In this document: one piece after another, positions 1 to 7,494 of the stretch
Position numbering within the stretch: the first letter of the stretch is position 1
Layout: every line of letters begins with the position of its first letter
Assembly (NCBI GenBank): GCA_900555605.1
Contig: USLW01000048.1
Location: 1-10,548 of the forward strand
From: an uncultured Clostridium sp.
GTDB taxonomy: Bacteria; Bacillota; Clostridia; UBA1212; UBA1255
Length of the DNA stretch: 10,548 nucleotides
Direction: 5' to 3'
Notes under the pieces: generated by a model
Told to the model about the DNA's origin: nothing
The model's database searches: none
What the model saw: only the letters and a program-made list of their open reading frames with translations
Translations under genes and position numbers: made by a program

Positions 1-191
1 GGATGTGCCGGCTTCTGAGAAAAGCGGATACGCCTCTGATCGGAGCGGCCGCGGGACATGTACATTTTAATCATGAGGATTATCTGACTTACGGCGTATG
101 TCCGCTGCTGAAAAATAGAGGCAGAAAGCAGTATGTAACGGATGTCGGCGCATTCGGCACGGTGCGCATATTCGACGTGGTTCCGGCTTGA
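1..191 (+). CDS. Metallophosphoesterase family protein, C-terminal end (5' truncated by window)
   Basis: The window opens inside a reading frame that ends at a TGA at 189-191. The visible tail of about 62 residues contains a GHVH motif followed by a tyrosine-, glycine- and valine-rich stretch (QYVTDVGAFGTVRIFDV). This is the layout at the end of calcineurin-like phosphoesterases, where the final GHxH supplies metal ligands and the last beta strands close the sandwich. The Met at position 3 is probably internal, because the upstream catalytic blocks (DxH, GD, GNH) would lie before the window. Substrate and subfamily cannot be told from this fragment. The stop codon overlaps the -35 hexamer of the likely thrS promoter, so this gene seems to belong to a different transcription unit from thrS. 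Family assignment is fairly secure; function is unknown. Confidence 0.6.
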   Translation, partial: MCRLLRKADTPLIGAAAGHVHFNHEDYLTYGVCPLLKNRGRKQYVTDVGAFGTVRIFDVVPA

Positions 192-216
192 TTTTTCATC
201 TTAATCAGCGTATGAT
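188..216 (+). promoter_or_regulatory. Predicted sigma-A promoter of the thrS-thyA-folA operon
   Basis: A TTGATT hexamer at 188-193 and TATGAT at 211-216 are separated by 17 nt, close to the vegetative consensus TTGACA-17-TATAAT. The -35 box overlaps the stop codon of the upstream phosphoesterase. Transcription would begin near 223, so the mRNA would start almost exactly at the base of the hairpin at 225-265. This is a prediction from sequence only. Confidence 0.55.
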
Positions 217-224
217 TAATCGGA

Positions 225-265
225 TCCGTACAGGCGGCAGCAGAGGCGTGAAGCGTCTGTACGGA
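225..265 (+). promoter_or_regulatory. Hairpin at the 5' end of the predicted thrS mRNA
   Basis: Positions 225-236 can pair with 254-265 as a 12-bp stem containing one G-U pair, with a 17-nt loop at 237-253. No T-run follows, so it is not an intrinsic terminator. It sits just after the predicted transcription start and ends about 24 nt before the Shine-Dalgarno sequence of thrS. It could stabilise the message, or act as an operator bound by the synthetase, as the tRNA-like thrS leader does in E. coli. The loop includes a CGU triplet, which is one threonine anticodon, but this is weak evidence. The stem is seen directly; the role is inferred. Confidence 0.45.
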
Positions 266-304
266 GAACGCACGACAGCATTATAAAAAGAGAGGTAGGT
301 TTGT

Positions 305-2248
305 ATGGTGAAGATTACTTTGAAGGACGGATCGGTGATTGAGGCTGCGGAAGGCGCCACCGTTTTGGAAATCGCGGAGCAGATCAGCCAGGGTTTAGCA
401 CGGGCTGCCGCTGCCGGTGAACTTGACGGGGAGGTGGTTGAACTGACAACGCCTGTCACACAAAGCGCACGGCTGAATATCCTGACCTTTGACAGTGAGG
501 CGGGGCAGCACGTTTACCGTCATACCACCTCTCATATTATGGCGCAGGCAGTGAAGCGCTTGATGCCGGAGGCAAAGCTGGCCATCGGGCCGGCAATTGA
601 CAGCGGGTTTTATTATGACTTTGATATAGAGGGAACCTTTACGGCAGAAGTGATTGCGCAGATCGAAGAGGAAATGAAAAAGATTATCAAAGAGAAGCTG
701 CCGATTGAAAAATTCGAGCTGAGCCGGCCGGAGGCACTGAAGCTGATGGAGGAACGGAAAGAACCGTATAAAATGGAGCTGATCAGAGATTTGCCCGAAG
801 ATGCACGGATTACATTTTACCGACAGGGTGAATTCGTGGATCTATGCGCAGGACCGCACCTGGATAACACCGGCAGAGTGAAGGCGTTTAAGCTGATTCA
901 GACAGCGGGCGCATACTGGCGCGGAAATGAAAAAAATAAAATGCTGCAGCGGATTTACGGTACAAGCTATCCGGACAAGAAGCTTTTGGCAGAGCATTTA
1001 GAGCGTCTTGAAGAGGCAAAGCGGCGGGATCATAATAAGTTAGGCAGAGAGCTGGAGATCTTTACGACAACGGACTATATCGGCCAAGGGCTGCCCATCA
1101 TGCTGCCCAAGGGGGCAAAAATGATGCAGATTCTTCAGCGCTTTGTGGAGGATGAAGAGGAACGCAGAGGGTATCTGCTCACCAAAACGCCGTATATGGC
1201 CAAATCAGACCTCTATAAGATATCCGGGCATTGGTATCATTACCGGGAAGGCATGTTCATTTTAGGCGATCCTGAAAAGGCAGAGGAAGAGGAGGTCATG
1301 GCGCTGCGTCCGATGACATGTCCCTTTCAGTTTCAGGCGTATTTAACCAGAACGAGAAGCTACCGCGATCTGCCGCTGCGCTACGGCGAGACCTCCACCT
1401 TGTTCCGCAATGAGTCCTCCGGTGAAATGCACGGCTTGATCCGTGTGCGGCAGTTTACCATCTCCGAAGGGCACCTGATGTGTACGCCTGAGCAGCTGGA
1501 GGAGGAATTCCGCGGCTGCCTGGATCTGGCAAACTATATGCTTTCCACATTGGGACTGGATGAGGATGTTTCTTACCGCTTTTCCAAATGGGATCCGAAT
1601 GACCGTGAGAAATATATCGGCAGCGATGAAGAATGGAACGCAGCGCAGTCCACTATGAAGCAGATTCTGGATCATATGGGGCTTGTGTATACGGAGGCTG
1701 AGGGGGAAGCGGCATTTTACGGGCCGAAGCTTGACATCCAGATCCGGAATGTACACGGCAAAGAGGATACGCTGATTACGATTCAGATCGACTTTCAGCT
1801 GGCTTCTAAATTCGATATGACTTATGTGGATCGCGATGGAAGCAAAAAGAATCCCTATATCATCCACAGAACTTCAATCGGCTGCTATGAGCGGACCTTG
1901 GCGCTGCTGATTGAGAAATACGCCGGCGCTTTTCCGGCTTGGCTTGCGCCGGTGCAGGTAAAGGTCATGCCGATTATTGAGAAACAGGCGGACTATTGTG
2001 CGGAGCTTTGCAGAAAATTAAAGGCTATGGGCTTCCGGGCCGTGCTGGACGACCGCAATGAAAAAATCGGCTACCGCATCCGCGAGGCACAGATGGAGAA
2101 GGTGCCTTATATGCTGGTGGCCGGGGACCGTGAAATGGAGGAGGGCATGGTCAATGTGCGCTCCAGAAAGGAAGGCACGTCGGAAAGCATGCCTTTTGAT
2201 GACTTTGCTGCAAAGCTGAAGGCGGAAGTGGAAAATAAAATCAGATAA
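305..2248 (+). CDS. thrS: Threonine--tRNA ligase (ThrRS)
   Basis: This cytosolic class II synthetase charges tRNA-Thr with threonine. At 647 residues it has full bacterial length and architecture: a TGS domain (about 1-60); an editing domain with the HxxxH pair H73/H77 and the C181/H185 pair (DLCAGPH), which clears mischarged serine; a catalytic core (about 250-545); and an anticodon-binding domain (about 550-647). Probable zinc ligands of the active site are C339, H390 and H521. The core is divergent: MTCPFQ replaces the usual MNCPGH, and SEGH replaces DDAH ahead of the histidine ligand. This points to a separate ThrRS lineage, which I believe is common in Clostridia. The start at 305 is supported by AGAGAGG at 289-295, 9 nt upstream. 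It is first in an operon, with thyA following after 42 nt. No T-box precedes it, although thrS is often T-box controlled in Bacillota. Confidence 0.96.
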   Translation: MVKITLKDGSVIEAAEGATVLEIAEQISQGLARAAAAGELDGEVVELTTPVTQSARLNILTFDSEAGQHVYRHTTSHIMAQAVKRLMPEAKLAIGPAIDSGFYYDFDIEGTFTAEVIAQIEEEMKKIIKEKLPIEKFELSRPEALKLMEERKEPYKMELIRDLPEDARITFYRQGEFVDLCAGPHLDNTGRVKAFKLIQTAGAYWRGNEKNKMLQRIYGTSYPDKKLLAEHLERLEEAKRRDHNKLGRELEIFTTTDYIGQGLPIMLPKGAKMMQILQRFVEDEEERRGYLLTKTPYMAKSDLYKISGHWYHYREGMFILGDPEKAEEEEVMALRPMTCPFQFQAYLTRTRSYRDLPLRYGETSTLFRNESSGEMHGLIRVRQFTISEGHLMCTPEQLEEEFRGCLDLANYMLSTLGLDEDVSYRFSKWDPNDREKYIGSDEEWNAAQSTMKQILDHMGLVYTEAEGEAAFYGPKLDIQIRNVHGKEDTLITIQIDFQLASKFDMTYVDRDGSKKNPYIIHRTSIGCYERTLALLIEKYAGAFPAWLAPVQVKVMPIIEKQADYCAELCRKLKAMGFRAVLDDRNEKIGYRIREAQMEKVPYMLVAGDREMEEGMVNVRSRKEGTSESMPFDDFAAKLKAEVENKIR

Positions 2249-3721: not shown

Positions 3722-3750
3722 TTGACAAGCGCAGGCTTTCCATCTATAAT
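3722..3750 (+). promoter_or_regulatory. Near-perfect sigma-A promoter driving the T-box leader
   Basis: TTGACA at 3722-3727 and TATAAT at 3745-3750 are both exact consensus hexamers with the optimal 17-nt spacer. Transcription should start near 3757. A strong constitutive promoter placed before an attenuator is the expected design for riboswitch control, where output is set by termination rather than initiation. It lies 42 nt after the folA stop codon. Confidence 0.85.
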
Positions 3751-3756
3751 CTTAAC

Positions 3757-4090
3757 ATTCGCCTTCGGCATCCCACAGCGGGGACGCGGAGCGCGGAGAA
3801 CAAGGGAATCATTGTGAAATGCGCAGATGAAAAGTAGTAACCTATCGGAGGCTTTCAGAGAGTTCTGGGATGGTGGGACAGAACAGCGGACTGACAGGCG
3901 AACTCGTTTCGGAGCACCTGAGGATGAACAGGGGGGAAGCCCTCCAATTAGTTTCAGGCGTTGGGCGGGCGTTAACCGCGCTTTGAGAGAGCGGATAAAA
4001 GGGGTGTTTGACCGGAGTCGGCTAATTAGAGTGGTACCGCGGAGTAAATTGGATCTTCGTCTCTATTTATACAGAGACGAGGATTTTTTT
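3757..4090 (+). promoter_or_regulatory. T-box riboswitch, leucine (CUC) specifier
   Basis: All main T-box parts are visible. The Stem I base has helix 3829-3832/3907-3910 next to tandem G-A pairs (3826-3827/3912-3913), the kink-turn element. It is followed by the AGTA motif (3833-3836) in the specifier loop. The distal part has CAGAGAG (3856-3862) and a 6-bp apical helix 3862-3867/3879-3884 closing a GGATGGTGGGA loop. On the 3' side GAA (3900-3902) precedes the specifier CTC (3903-3905), then G and the conserved TCGGAGCA block. A Stem III-like hairpin uses 3976-3979/3991-3994. The T-box proper, AGAGTGGTACCGCGG, spans 4028-4042. The antiterminator pairs AGAG (4028-4031) with CTCT (4061-4064) and AC with GT (4059-4060), leaving UGGU (4032-4035) as the tRNA-acceptor bulge; its U matches an A73 discriminator as in tRNA-Leu. 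Uncharged tRNA-Leu(GAG) would stabilise the antiterminator and turn on the genes from 4125. The T-box call is firm; the leucine register is inferred from spacing to the conserved flanks. Confidence 0.9.
4053..4090 (+). terminator. Intrinsic terminator of the T-box leader
   Basis: Positions 4053-4064 pair with 4073-4084 as a 12-bp stem with one G-U pair and an 8-nt loop (4065-4072). A seven-T run at 4084-4090 follows. The 5' arm (4059-4064) is shared with the antiterminator helix, so the two structures exclude each other. It lies 34 nt before the acyl-CoA synthetase start codon. Confidence 0.92.
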
Positions 4091-4124
4091 ATTATATTTT
4101 ATTATAATTAAGAGAGGTAAGGAA

Positions 4125-5825
4125 ATGGAAACGTACAAGATTTTTGGCGAAGCGGAGCATTCATTGATCGAAATGACCTTGGGAGATTTGCTGGAAAAAG
4201 TGGCTTCTGTCTATCCTGACGTTGATTGCGTCGTTTACAACGATCGTCCGTTTCGTATGAGCTATGCCGCTTTCAACCGGGAGTGCGACAGAATCGCAAA
4301 GGGGATGATGGCGCTGGGCGTAAAAAAAGGCTCTCATGTGGCGATCTGGGCGACAAATTATCCGGAATGGATACTTACCATGTTTGCCTCGGCTAAAATC
4401 GGCGCAACGCTGGTAACGGTTAATACCAATTATAAAGTGTTTGAAGCGGAATATCTGCTGAAACAGTCGGATACGGATACGCTGGTGATGATGCACGGCC
4501 TGAAGGATACCTGTTATGTAGATATTATCAATGAATTATGTCCTGAGCTGAAGGACAGCAAGCCGGGCGCACTGCAGTCGTCAAATCTGCCATACCTGAA
4601 GCGTGTCATTTATATTGATAAAGAAGAGGATACCCCGGCGGGCATGCTGCACTGGTCGGCGTTAAGCGCTTTAGGAGAATCCGTTTCAGAGGATGCCTTC
4701 GAGGAGGCAAAGCGCGCGGTCAGCTGCTTTGATGTGGTAAATATGCAGTATACGTCAGGTACCACGGGCTTTCCCAAGGGCGTTATGCTTACCCATTATA
4801 ATATTTTAAATAACGGAAAATGCATCGGCGACAATCAGAATCTATCCTATGTGGACCGGGTCTGCCTTCCGGTGCCGTTTTTTCACTGCTTCGGCTGTGT
4901 GCTGGGGATTATGGCTTGTATTACGCATGGCTCTACCATCGTACCTGTAGAGCGCTACCATCCGGTGCGGGTAATGACAACCGTGCAGGAGGAGCACTGT
5001 ACGGCTGTTTACGGCGTGCCCACGATGTATATTGCGATGCTGGAGCATCCGGACTTTGAAAAATATGATTTTTCCTCTCTGCGCACCGGCATTATGTCCG
5101 GCTCTCCATGCCCTGTAAAGGTCATGGAAAAGGTGGTTAATGCCATGAATATGCGGGAGATTACAATTCCCTACGGCTTGACAGAGGTATCTCCGGTATG
5201 CACCATGACAAATATCAGCGACAGCATTGAAAAGCGCGTGGCTACGGTTGGGCGTAAAATGCCGTTCGTTGAAGTAAAGGTGGTGGACCCGGAAACCTAT
5301 GAGGATCTTCCGCCGAACACGCCGGGCGAGGTTGTGGTGCGCGGATATTCCGTGATGAAGGGATATTATAAAATGCCGGAGGCTACGGCACAGGCCATTG
5401 ACGGAGATGGCTGGCTCCATTCGGGGGATCTGGCGGTAATAGATGAAGAGGGATATTTCCATATTACCGGCCGGATTAAGGATATGATCATCCGGGGCGG
5501 CGAGAATATCTATCCGAAGGAGCTGGAGGAATTCCTATACACGCATCCGCAGGTTCGGGATGTTCAGGTTATCGGCGTGCCGGACAAAAATTACGGAGAG
5601 GAGGTCTGTGCCTGTGTCATTCTGAAAGAAGGCGAGACCGTATCCGAAGACGCGCTTAAAGAGTACATCCGCAGTCATCTCTCCAGACATAAAATGCCCA
5701 AGTACATTTGGTTTATGGATGCGTTTCCCATGACGGCCAGCGGCAAAATCCAGAAGTATAAAATGCGGGAACAGGCTGTCGTACATCTGAATCTTCATGA
5801 GGCGGCAGGCATTGAAACTGCGTAA
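4125..5825 (+). CDS. AMP-forming acyl-CoA synthetase (fatty acid--CoA ligase family)
   Basis: This member of the adenylate-forming (ANL) superfamily activates a carboxylic acid with ATP and joins it to coenzyme A, in the cytoplasm or at the inner membrane face. Its 566 residues are typical. Motifs in order: ATP-phosphate loop YTSGTTGFPKG (209-219); YGLTE (350-354); GWLHSGDLA (429-437), whose Asp binds ribose; the hinge TGRIKDMIIRGGENIYP (448-464); and the C-terminal PMTASGKIQ with catalytic lysine K541. Overall it resembles FadD/YngI/ACSF2-type medium- or branched-chain enzymes more than acetyl-CoA synthetase, but the acyl substrate cannot be read from sequence. The start follows AGAGAGG with a 7-nt gap, just past the T-box terminator, so expression should depend on uncharged tRNA-Leu. 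That context suggests a leucine-related acid such as isovalerate, which is inference. It is first of three genes; the thioesterase starts 26 nt later. Confidence 0.9.
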   Translation: METYKIFGEAEHSLIEMTLGDLLEKVASVYPDVDCVVYNDRPFRMSYAAFNRECDRIAKGMMALGVKKGSHVAIWATNYPEWILTMFASAKIGATLVTVNTNYKVFEAEYLLKQSDTDTLVMMHGLKDTCYVDIINELCPELKDSKPGALQSSNLPYLKRVIYIDKEEDTPAGMLHWSALSALGESVSEDAFEEAKRAVSCFDVVNMQYTSGTTGFPKGVMLTHYNILNNGKCIGDNQNLSYVDRVCLPVPFFHCFGCVLGIMACITHGSTIVPVERYHPVRVMTTVQEEHCTAVYGVPTMYIAMLEHPDFEKYDFSSLRTGIMSGSPCPVKVMEKVVNAMNMREITIPYGLTEVSPVCTMTNISDSIEKRVATVGRKMPFVEVKVVDPETYEDLPPNTPGEVVVRGYSVMKGYYKMPEATAQAIDGDGWLHSGDLAVIDEEGYFHITGRIKDMIIRGGENIYPKELEEFLYTHPQVRDVQVIGVPDKNYGEEVCACVILKEGETVSEDALKEYIRSHLSRHKMPKYIWFMDAFPMTASGKIQKYKMREQAVVHLNLHEAAGIETA

Positions 5826-5851: not shown

Positions 5852-6658
5852 ATGGAAAGAACAGGACAGCTGCCCGACGGGCGGTACTGTGAACAGATTG
5901 AATTGGTCGCACATGACGTGGACTTGAATAACCGGCTGAAGGTATCATCCGTATTTTCCCATGTACAGGAGGTTGCAAACGCGCAGTGCGTACATTTTCA
6001 TGTGGGGCATGAGGAATTAATGGAACGATTTGGACTGTGCTACGTGCTGACCCGGATGCGTTTTGTTATGGAGTCGTATCCGACGGTGGGAGAAAAGGTG
6101 TGGGTTTGCACGTGGCCGGACAATAAATTGCGGGTGGTATTCACACGGTATTTTACCTTGCATGGAGCAGATGACCGCCTGATCGGCAGCGCTGTCTCAA
6201 ATTGGGTTCTGTTCGATACCCGCAGACGCGCCTTGGCAAAGCCTCAGGATTACGGCGTATATATTCCGGTGGATACCTCCGGCGTTACGCCGCCGCAAGT
6301 TATGCCTAAGGGAACGAAGTTTGACTTTGTACCGGCGCATACCGCTTTGCGGCAGCCGGTATACAGCGATTTTGATTATAACCGCCATGTAAATAATGCC
6401 CGGTATGTGGAGTGGATCTGCGATGTACTGCCGCTGGAATTGCTGAAGAGGCAGCCAATCCGGGAAATTGATATCAAGTATGATCATGAAATCGGATTAG
6501 AGGCTTTTCTGGAACAGCCTGAGGCGGCACGCGCGCTTCGGATTGATTCCGCTTATGATAAAAACGAGTTTTCCGTCCGGGGAACGGGCTGGGATCAAAT
6601 TGTATTTTTTGAATGCAAAGGTACTTTTTTTCAAGAGGGAAAGGAGAAAACAATATGA
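5852..6658 (+). CDS. Acyl-ACP thioesterase (FatA/FatB family)
   Basis: This enzyme hydrolyses acyl-acyl carrier protein to free fatty acid, ending chain growth in type II fatty acid synthesis. The 268-residue protein has the double-hotdog layout: an N-terminal hotdog (about 10-135) and a C-terminal one (about 160-262). The family signature DFDYNRHVNNARYVEW (173-188) carries the catalytic D175, N177 and H179. A downstream glutamate, E213 in YDHEIGLE, fits the position of the catalytic Glu in plant FatB; the adjacent Cys of the plant enzymes is Ile here. I chose ATG 5852 because GAAAGGA (5834-5840) lies 11 nt before it. An in-frame ATG at 5840 overlaps that site and would add four residues. The gene shares the T-box-controlled message with the acyl-CoA synthetase, so the pair could pass acyl groups from ACP to CoA by way of the free acid. 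Chain-length preference is unknown. Confidence 0.88.
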   Translation: MERTGQLPDGRYCEQIELVAHDVDLNNRLKVSSVFSHVQEVANAQCVHFHVGHEELMERFGLCYVLTRMRFVMESYPTVGEKVWVCTWPDNKLRVVFTRYFTLHGADDRLIGSAVSNWVLFDTRRRALAKPQDYGVYIPVDTSGVTPPQVMPKGTKFDFVPAHTALRQPVYSDFDYNRHVNNARYVEWICDVLPLELLKRQPIREIDIKYDHEIGLEAFLEQPEAARALRIDSAYDKNEFSVRGTGWDQIVFFECKGTFFQEGKEKTI

Positions 6659-7494
6659 AGCTGAAATATTTCGGTACAGCGGCCGCGGAGGGCTGGCCCG
6701 GCCTGTTTTGTGACTGCGATGCCTGCCGGCGGGCGCGTGCTGCCGGAGGCCGCAATATCCGCACCCGGTCGCAGGCGATCATAGACGACTGCCTGCTGAT
6801 TGATTTTCCTGCCGATACATATATGCATGTGCTTTACGGCGGCTTGGATTTGACAAAGGTTTCGTCTTGTCTTATTACGCATACCCATGAGGATCATTTT
6901 TATCCGCTGGATTTCGGAAACCGCAGAGAGGGATTTGCCTATCTGCGGCCGGATAAACCGTTTTTTACCGTATACGGATCGGAGACCGTGGGACATGAAA
7001 TGAAATCCGTCATCGAGACCGTGGGCACGGCGCGCGTGAATTTTGCGCCGATGCAAAAATTTGAAACAGCTGTGATCGACGGCTATGAGGTCACCGCGCT
7101 GGCGGCAGATCATGATCCGAACAGCGGATGCGTGATTTACATGATCGGCGATGGGAACAAAACTATGCTGTACGCAAATGATACGGGCTACTTTCCAGAG
7201 GAGACCTGGACGTATCTGATTGATCGCACAAAAGAAGGCCGCCTGCGGTTTGATTATGTATCAATTGATTGTACCGGGGGCTTGGGCGCACAATACCAAA
7301 GGGGCCATATGGGAACAGAAGCAGCTGCCTCTGTTCGTGAAAGACTGCTGACCGCAGGCTGTGCAGACCGCGATACGGTTTTCTGCCTGCATCATTTCTC
7401 TCATAACGGAAAAGCCATTTATGACGAGCTTGTAGGCCCTGCCGCCGAAATGGGCTTCCTTGTGTCCTATGACGGAATGGAAGTTGAGATATAA
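6655..7494 (+). CDS. Metallo-beta-lactamase-fold hydrolase, PhnP/PqqB-like
   Basis: The 279-residue protein shows the metal-binding set of the metallo-beta-lactamase fold: HTHEDH (76-81), H153 in ADHD, D176 in ANDTG, and a late histidine cluster HHFSH (246-250). Near the N-terminus, CDCDAC provides C19, C21 and C24. This CxCxxC structural-zinc motif is found in PhnP phosphodiesterase and relatives, within the same GTG-like opening (FGTAAAEG). No phn or pqq genes are nearby, so the substrate is unknown; an ester, thioester or phosphodiester is possible. I chose ATG 6655, with AAGGAG 8 nt upstream, over an in-frame ATG at 6613 that lies inside the thioesterase gene. The start overlaps the thioesterase stop as ATGA, which implies translational coupling and a role tied to the acyl module. 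It ends 20 nt before the convergent phosphatase gene with no visible terminator. Confidence 0.82.
   Translation: MKLKYFGTAAAEGWPGLFCDCDACRRARAAGGRNIRTRSQAIIDDCLLIDFPADTYMHVLYGGLDLTKVSSCLITHTHEDHFYPLDFGNRREGFAYLRPDKPFFTVYGSETVGHEMKSVIETVGTARVNFAPMQKFETAVIDGYEVTALAADHDPNSGCVIYMIGDGNKTMLYANDTGYFPEETWTYLIDRTKEGRLRFDYVSIDCTGGLGAQYQRGHMGTEAAASVRERLLTAGCADRDTVFCLHHFSHNGKAIYDELVGPAAEMGFLVSYDGMEVEI

Follow-up and report, generated by a model that had tools for sequence, protein, structure and literature searches.

A leucine T-box upstream of an acyl-CoA synthetase gene in gut Clostridia suggests tRNA-controlled activation of a branched acid for leucine synthesis

The window (the whole analysed stretch of 10,548 nucleotides) contains a leucine-class T-box leader directly upstream of a gene encoding an AMP-forming acyl-CoA synthetase (ACS), and the same pair is found in related genomes. 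We consider it probable that this T-box controls a synthetase activating an exogenous branched acid, isovalerate being the likeliest, which would feed a route to leucine via a VorBAC-type 2-oxoacid:ferredoxin oxidoreductase (VOR) and the transaminase IlvE. The locus provides a specific candidate for the gene behind isovalerate activation, together with the way in which the cell would switch this gene on.

The features of the locus are listed in Table 1. RF00230 (T-box) is the only Rfam family reaching its own cut-off within the window: the match covers positions 3815-4067 and the full model (1-219), with 106.3 bits against the gathering cut-off of 93 (E = 3e-23). As judged from the promoter, transcription is expected to start close to position 3757. 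The Rfam alignment places GAA-CUC-G (3900-3906) at the 3' side of the Stem I internal loop, and hence the specifier is CUC, that is, leucine; in the relatives this triplet is CUC or CUG wherever it is readable. A UGGU bulge for the ACCA end of the tRNA lies within the antiterminator (4032-4035) and fits tRNA-Leu, whose discriminator base we take to be A. The terminator hairpin (4051-4086) with the T-run folds with -18.8 kcal/mol, none of 200 shuffled sequences being as good, and shares ten bases (4055-4064) with the antiterminator, so that the two structures are mutually exclusive. The antiterminator taken alone (-8.0 kcal/mol) is no better than shuffles (73 of 200 were as good), and the T-box architecture is not seen in the minimum-energy fold of the whole leader (z = -2.0). 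Still, given the score and the conservation described below, a chance origin of the T-box match is very unlikely. An earlier note, made from the letters of the window, had claimed a complete T-box leader with exclusive antiterminator and terminator directly ahead of the ACS gene and had read CTC after GAA at 3903-3905; both the covariance score above the cut-off, which that note had proposed to obtain, and the folds bear this out, the leader having a leucine specifier in the Stem I internal loop, a UGGN bulge and an exclusive terminator. Readthrough would be controlled by uncharged cognate tRNA-Leu.

Table 1. Features of the leader and of the genes downstream of it (positions in the window)
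Feature	Position	Strand	Basis or remark
Promoter, sigma-70, TTGACA-N17-TATAAT	3722..3750	+	consensus match 12/12
T-box leader transcript	3757..4090	+	RF00230 match; terminator and T-run reach 4090; start inferred from promoter
Stem I: specifier loop, AGAGAG and apical elements	3821..3915	+	Rfam alignment
Specifier codon CUC (Leu)	3903..3905	+	GAA 5', G 3'; Rfam alignment
Antiterminator with T-box sequence	4027..4065	+	fold, Rfam alignment
Intrinsic terminator, 14 pairs and T-run	4051..4090	+	fold, z -6.6
AMP-forming acyl-CoA synthetase (ACS), 566 aa, PRK12583-like	4125..5825	+	PF00501 and PF13193
Acyl-ACP thioesterase-like protein	5852..6658	+	PF01643/PF20791; next gene after ACS
MBL-fold hydrolase	6655..7494	+	PF12706; third gene on strand

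The ACS gene is the first one directly after the T-box, its reading frame starting at 4125, and its product belongs to the ANL superfamily by both Pfam domains, the conserved motifs and the C-terminal lysine. The TSGTTGFPKG and SGK541 motifs are invariant across alignment A1 (13 sequences, the window ACS included), and the lysine of the C-terminal SGK motif is presumably the catalytic one. The best NCBIfam match is PRK12583 ('fatty acid CoA ligase'; 773.6 bits, under the cut-off of 832), and MbcS (NF047394, cut-off 850 bits) is absent from the 25 listed of 109 NCBIfam matches (the weakest listed having 256 bits). The family assignment does not fix the substrate chain length; nevertheless, from the combined evidence of the specifier and of the gene neighbourhoods considered below, we propose the enzyme to be an isovaleryl-CoA synthetase, with isovalerate as its most likely substrate.

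The NCBIfam neighbours of the ACS are mostly fatty-acid ligases, and the gene after it encodes an acyl-ACP thioesterase or its relative in three cases, namely the window, L001 and G055 (a PF12706 protein is also located downstream in G055). Both observations would suit a lipid link, in which leucine shortage would make the ACS activate medium, long or iso-branched acids destined for membrane lipids or for the priming of iso-fatty acids. However, an AP_endonuc_2 protein is found beside the ACS in L007, L013 and L018 and fused to it in L055 and L141, and in G047 and G048 it is TatD that follows; the acyl-ACP thioesterase is not a conserved partner, and its candidacy as the key one was rejected. 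As, in addition, the vor/ilvE clusters and the parallel isoleucine, valine and phenylalanine pairs described below indicate amino acids, we regard the lipid link as improbable. The earlier note had included iso-fatty-acid priming in its proposal; the adjoining thioesterase is the sole hint of it, and this part found no support.

To follow the pair in other genomes, we used a search profile made of the window ACS and 12 relatives (66-84% identity) and considered the best 80 of at least 592 confirmed candidate loci; since some of these begin at a contig end, an absent T-box is uninformative there. A T-box motif (at most two mismatches) was observed upstream of the ACS in 28 of these best 80 loci. 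The distance between the motif and the ACS match is within approximately 280 bases in 18 cases, 1-1.3 kb in six and 2.3 kb in four; in the latter two groups other coding sequence intervenes before the ACS. The Rfam cut-off was passed by 22 of the 28 loci, the exceptions being L015, L017, L018, L042, L057 and L061, and no T-box reached it in the ten of the 52 motif-less loci that were scanned. The specifier was readable in 26 of the 28 loci, all but L017 and L018, and invariably denotes leucine (CUC, n = 23; CUG, n = 3), although the reading is less certain in L021, with seven instead of six bases from the triplet to GAGC, and in L042, where CUG lacks the preceding GAA.

The nearest named genome (L001), a Clostridia MAG, comes from the colon of water deer, and its ACS shows 80% identity. 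In its family, 10 of the 16 genomes have an ACS match (E 1e-150): seven carry a free ACS (78-80% identity), in each case with the T-box directly upstream, and three carry a fused form (53% identity) with the T-box approximately 2.3 kb upstream. In the order as a whole the ACS is present in 26 of the 31 genomes (in G057 as two pieces on two contigs, counted as one gene) and is accompanied by the T-box in 21 of the 26, the specifiers being leucine in all 21 (CUC, n = 17; CUG, n = 4). No T-box motif was found upstream of the fused ACS in G056 and G063, and in G045, G059 and G064, where the ACS lies at contig ends, no T-box is shown. Hence the leader-gene pairing recurs in relatives, as the earlier note had proposed to check, and all 47 specifiers read before the ACS, including those of G058 (CUC) and of the window, denote leucine.

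In a number of loci a xylose-isomerase-like TIM-barrel protein follows the ACS or is fused at its N-terminus; PF01261 (AP_endonuc_2) was confirmed in separate proteins from L007, L013 and L018 and in the fusions from L055 and L141. In L042, L055, L069, L076, G042, G043 and G046 the T-box and the ACS fusion are separated by the gene of a LeuA-like protein (approximately 460-480 aa). All eight full-length copies aligned with one real LeuA as the reference lack the RDGxQ, HxHND and GNGERTGN motifs (the L048 copy is too short to judge), and the loss of the first two is also seen in comparison of the L141 copy with its PDB relatives; the LeuA_dimer domain is retained in both copies tested (L055, L141). 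These copies (for example, L055:3714-5132 and L141:5675-7060) are located behind a leucine T-box in seven of the eight cases and ahead of the ACS fusion in all eight. The protein probably represents an isopropylmalate synthase that has lost its activity and been retained for leucine binding, and possibly a leucine-sensing subunit.

The proposed mechanism is as follows. Leucine shortage would yield uncharged tRNA-Leu with the anticodon GAG, which would pair with the CUC specifier, its ACCA end pairing with UGGU; the antiterminator would be stabilised, and transcription would proceed into the ACS gene. The synthetase would then convert isovalerate from the surroundings, that is, the gut, to isovaleryl-CoA; provided that the organism of the window has VOR and IlvE, a VorBAC-type enzyme working in the carboxylating direction would reductively carboxylate it to 2-oxoisocaproate, and IlvE would transaminate the latter to leucine. 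In genomes with leuABCD, such a salvage route would provide a second source of leucine.

We annotated 20 VorB neighbourhoods and then checked them by tblastn. In three of them (G026, L261; G028, L263; G040, L264) genes for ACS, VOR and IlvE form a cluster on one strand, in the order MbcS-like ligase, ATPase, vorB, vorA, vorC, ilvE, LeuA-like gene, TIM/ACS fusion. IlvE and VorB pass their NCBIfam cut-offs, and the beta and gamma subunits match their own families below the cut-off. A leucine T-box precedes the LeuA-like gene in the G026 and G028 clusters; in G040, ilvE ends approximately 25 bases before this gene, leaving no room for a T-box. The clustered ACS is in all three cases of the fused, more distant type (55-57% identity), and none of the clusters lies beside the free type of the window. 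In G021 (L262) there is an isoleucine T-box with a ligase, then a valine T-box followed by a ligase, ATPase, vorBAC and ilvE, and the leucine T-box with the fusion is on another contig. An MbcS-like ligase follows vorBAC in G024 (L272), PaaK and an ACT protein are situated near the vor genes in G020 (L279), and the remaining 14 of the 20 neighbourhoods contain no such ligase or IlvE match within the stretch.

Such a route also accords with the joint loss of ilvC and ilvD in most genomes of the order. Of its 31 genomes, 26 lack ilvC, and precisely these 26 lack ilvD as well, while both genes are present in 14 of 14 control genomes; the exact coincidence of the two sets led us to reject incomplete assemblies as the cause of the ilvC absence. 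VorB is above the cut-off in 25 of the 31 genomes. In the family, all ten ACS-bearing genomes lack ilvC and ilvD, and eight of them have VorB over the cut-off; G047 and G048, which are among the seven closest relatives, do not. The 2-oxoacid:ferredoxin oxidoreductase genes that the earlier note had suggested looking for are thus found in most genomes of the order and, clustered with an ACS gene, in three of them. We rejected a link between the loss of ilvC and the T-box ACS, as the two do not go together: ilvC occurs in 10 of the 28 motif-bearing genomes versus 6 of the 12 that lack the motif, and among order genomes in 4 of the 26 with the ACS versus 1 of the 5 others. VorB, in turn, occurs both with and without ilvC. 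In G046 (L156:370-2543) and G027 (L196), where ilvC and ilvD were not found, ilvB is situated behind a probable valine T-box (GUC), and an ilvN-like gene follows it in G046; these two genomes have therefore not lost acetolactate chemistry altogether.

The main rival explanation is that the ACS activates isobutyrate or several branched acids, leucine gaining indirectly through isobutyryl-CoA, 2-oxoisovalerate and LeuABCD. Without ilvC and ilvD, the ten family genomes with the T-box ACS would need 2-oxoisovalerate from elsewhere, as this explanation supposes; five of them keep leuB over the cut-off, and G047 has leuA-leuC-leuD-leuB under a leucine T-box of its own. (The same retention, in these five genomes and in the G047 operon, made us reject the view of the ACS as a plain replacement of LeuABCD.) On the other hand, the other five genomes have no leuB match, and isobutyrate would call for a valine signal, whereas the valine T-boxes are instead found on MbcS-like ligases. 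We therefore consider this explanation unlikely and retain isovalerate as the preferred substrate.

Yet another possibility is that the ACS belongs to leucine breakdown or to an unrelated acid pathway, the T-box being an accident of gene order. 2-Oxoacid:ferredoxin oxidoreductases do act in amino-acid fermentation as well, but T-boxes of the transcriptional kind respond to starvation by opening, a misfit with catabolism, and an accident is at odds with the leucine specifier before the ACS in 47 of 47 cases read; this explanation appears highly improbable. The reading of the earlier note, in which leucine shortage leads to activation of a branched acid for leucine synthesis, is much strengthened by the conservation of the leucine specifier, the vor/ilvE clusters, the loss of ilvC and ilvD and the parallel pairs, the substrate itself remaining a prediction. 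The same note had contrasted the ACS with an amino acid gene; this contrast appears not to hold, as the ACS is most likely an amino-acid biosynthesis gene itself.

We further considered the targets of T-boxes among the matches listed, 39 from the 10 family genomes and 102 from 21 other genomes of our choice (the T-boxes of G002, G003, G005 and G018 are mostly outside this census). Leucine T-boxes precede the ACS, its form with the LeuA-like protein and fusion, or leuA-type genes. Isoleucine (AUC) T-boxes are located before MbcS-like ligases in G049, G050, G051 and G055, and before HTH-cupin-ligase genes in G001, G047, G048, G042, G043, G046, G062, G017 and G024, with further cases in G014, G015, G019 and G021; in the first three of these four, separate reading frames encode the HTH-cupin and ligase halves. 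Behind valine T-boxes (GUC or GUA), G017 and G019 have MbcS-like ligases, whereas the genes found there in G021 and G026 are of the HTH-cupin-ligase type. Phenylalanine T-boxes precede PaaK (phenylacetate-CoA ligase) and an ACT-pair protein in G001, G042, G043 and G046, and probable tyrosine T-boxes precede an AMP-binding ligase of 544-550 aa in G057, G058, G062 and G063. As a separate observation, in L122, L144 and their relatives HTH and cupin domains are fused to an MbcS-like synthetase under an isoleucine or valine T-box.

The association between ligase type and specifier is complete in the 74 pairs compiled (ACS-Leu, n = 45; MbcS-like-Ile, n = 17; MbcS-like-Val, n = 4; PaaK-Phe, n = 4; fourth ligase-Tyr, n = 4; no exceptions; L017, L018, G058 and the window were left out), and none of 20000 permutations of this hand-compiled table reached it, shared ancestry being uncorrected. 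The four phenylalanine and four tyrosine leaders depart from the spacing expected of a specifier (triplet, six bases, GAG); here, seven specifiers were read by eye as GAA-NNN-A, and the G046 leader, with AUUCA lacking GAA, was assigned because it resembles the neighbouring ones. Followed strictly, this spacing would yield ACA (threonine) in the tyrosine leaders, and tyrosine is the weakest of the five specificities. The fourth ligase (L165:385-2022, L167, L174, L175) is PRK06187-like, below the cut-off, and is possibly a 4-hydroxyphenylacetate-CoA ligase.

For the four ligases tested from under isoleucine or valine T-boxes, the best NCBIfam family is MbcS (416-473 bits, under the 850 cut-off). 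The best PDB match of the MbcS-like enzymes is 3etc (755.7 and 574.5 bits), named 'AMP-binding protein' in PDB, which we take to be a 2-methylbutyryl-CoA synthetase. According to excerpts of the MbcS study in Staphylococcus aureus (PMC10026030), the enzyme acts selectively on 2-methylbutyrate and isobutyrate, the acids related to isoleucine and valine, whereas isovalerate, the one related to leucine, is a poor substrate; this preference fits the isoleucine and valine T-boxes on its relatives and a different enzyme under leucine T-boxes. MbcS, like the proposed function of the window ACS, is an AMP-forming ligase for exogenous branched acids and is the closest named family of the ligases under isoleucine and valine T-boxes in the relatives; in the same excerpts it serves branched fatty acids, and the window ACS belongs to another, PRK12583-like subfamily. 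Hence the specifiers seem to agree with the known biochemistry where it is available, and leucine appears to have a distinct ligase of its own.

Generalizing, we lean towards a rule by which, in gut Clostridia, many of them without KARI and DHAD, specifier-matched T-boxes control CoA ligases, each of them activating the acid from which the amino acid in question can be made: isovalerate for leucine, 2-methylbutyrate for isoleucine, isobutyrate for valine, phenylacetate for phenylalanine and, perhaps, 4-hydroxyphenylacetate for tyrosine. It would be a reductive-carboxylation regulon controlled by tRNA charging, with feedback modules on the ligases, the candidates being the LeuA homologue for the leucine ligase, the ACT-pair protein for the phenylalanine one and the HTH-cupin fusions for the isoleucine and valine ones. 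As each specifier denotes a particular amino acid, substrates can be predicted from it for acyl-CoA ligases that are uninformative by themselves, and this simple rule can be tested enzyme by enzyme.

The underlying metabolism has been known for sixty years: in rumen and gut anaerobes, isoacids and phenylacetate serve as precursors of branched and aromatic amino acids, and cattle are given isoacids in their feed. The isovalerate carboxylation route to leucine in rumen bacteria was reportedly described by Allison and co-workers in the 1960s. Leucine from isovalerate, isoleucine from 2-methylbutyrate, valine from isobutyrate and phenylalanine from phenylacetate are all listed for rumen bacteria in excerpts of PMC7356843; the chemistry proposed here is the same, and the window locus adds a candidate gene and a regulator. 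With leucine-class T-boxes (RF00230) the window leader shares the promoter, Stem I, CUC specifier, UGGU bulge and exclusive antiterminator and terminator, CUC accounting for 74% of leucine specifiers in TBDB as given in excerpts of PMC7778990; its target, however, is the ACS rather than an aminoacyl-tRNA synthetase, a transporter or a classical leu/ilv gene. In Geobacter a T-box before leuA is described in excerpts of PMC2700814 and PMC2494555, likewise a leucine T-box on a leucine-synthesis gene, but leuA belongs to the classical isopropylmalate route, while the window gene would activate a preformed acid. In the open-access papers searched we found no mention of T-boxes on acid-CoA ligases and no paper combining 'T-box' with 'phenylacetate-CoA ligase'; the main text of the TBDB paper (PMC7778990) contains no word beginning with 'CoA' or 'ligase', and PMC2494555 none beginning with 'acyl-CoA' or 'fatty'. 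Thus, within the literature searched, T-boxes, the leucine specifier and the rumen pathway are already known, and T-boxes on acid-CoA ligases are apparently new.

Some other T-boxes were noticed in passing. On the 5' side of the leader the window contains thrS, thyA and a gene for dihydrofolate reductase. The 304 bases upstream of thrS (window 1-305) hold no T-box reaching the Rfam cut-off, whereas in several relatives thrS is preceded by a T-box with an ACU or ACC (threonine) triplet. In Desulfofundulus thermosubterraneus (L032:5571-5860) the leucine T-box leader of the ACS gene harbours a tRNA-Ala(GGC) gene with an encoded CCA (5740-5814), situated after Stem I and before the antiterminator. 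Finally, tryptophan (UGG) T-boxes are located directly before trpB or a TrpB-like gene in L123, L145, L149, L154, L182 and other loci, which suggests indole salvage under the control of tRNA-Trp.
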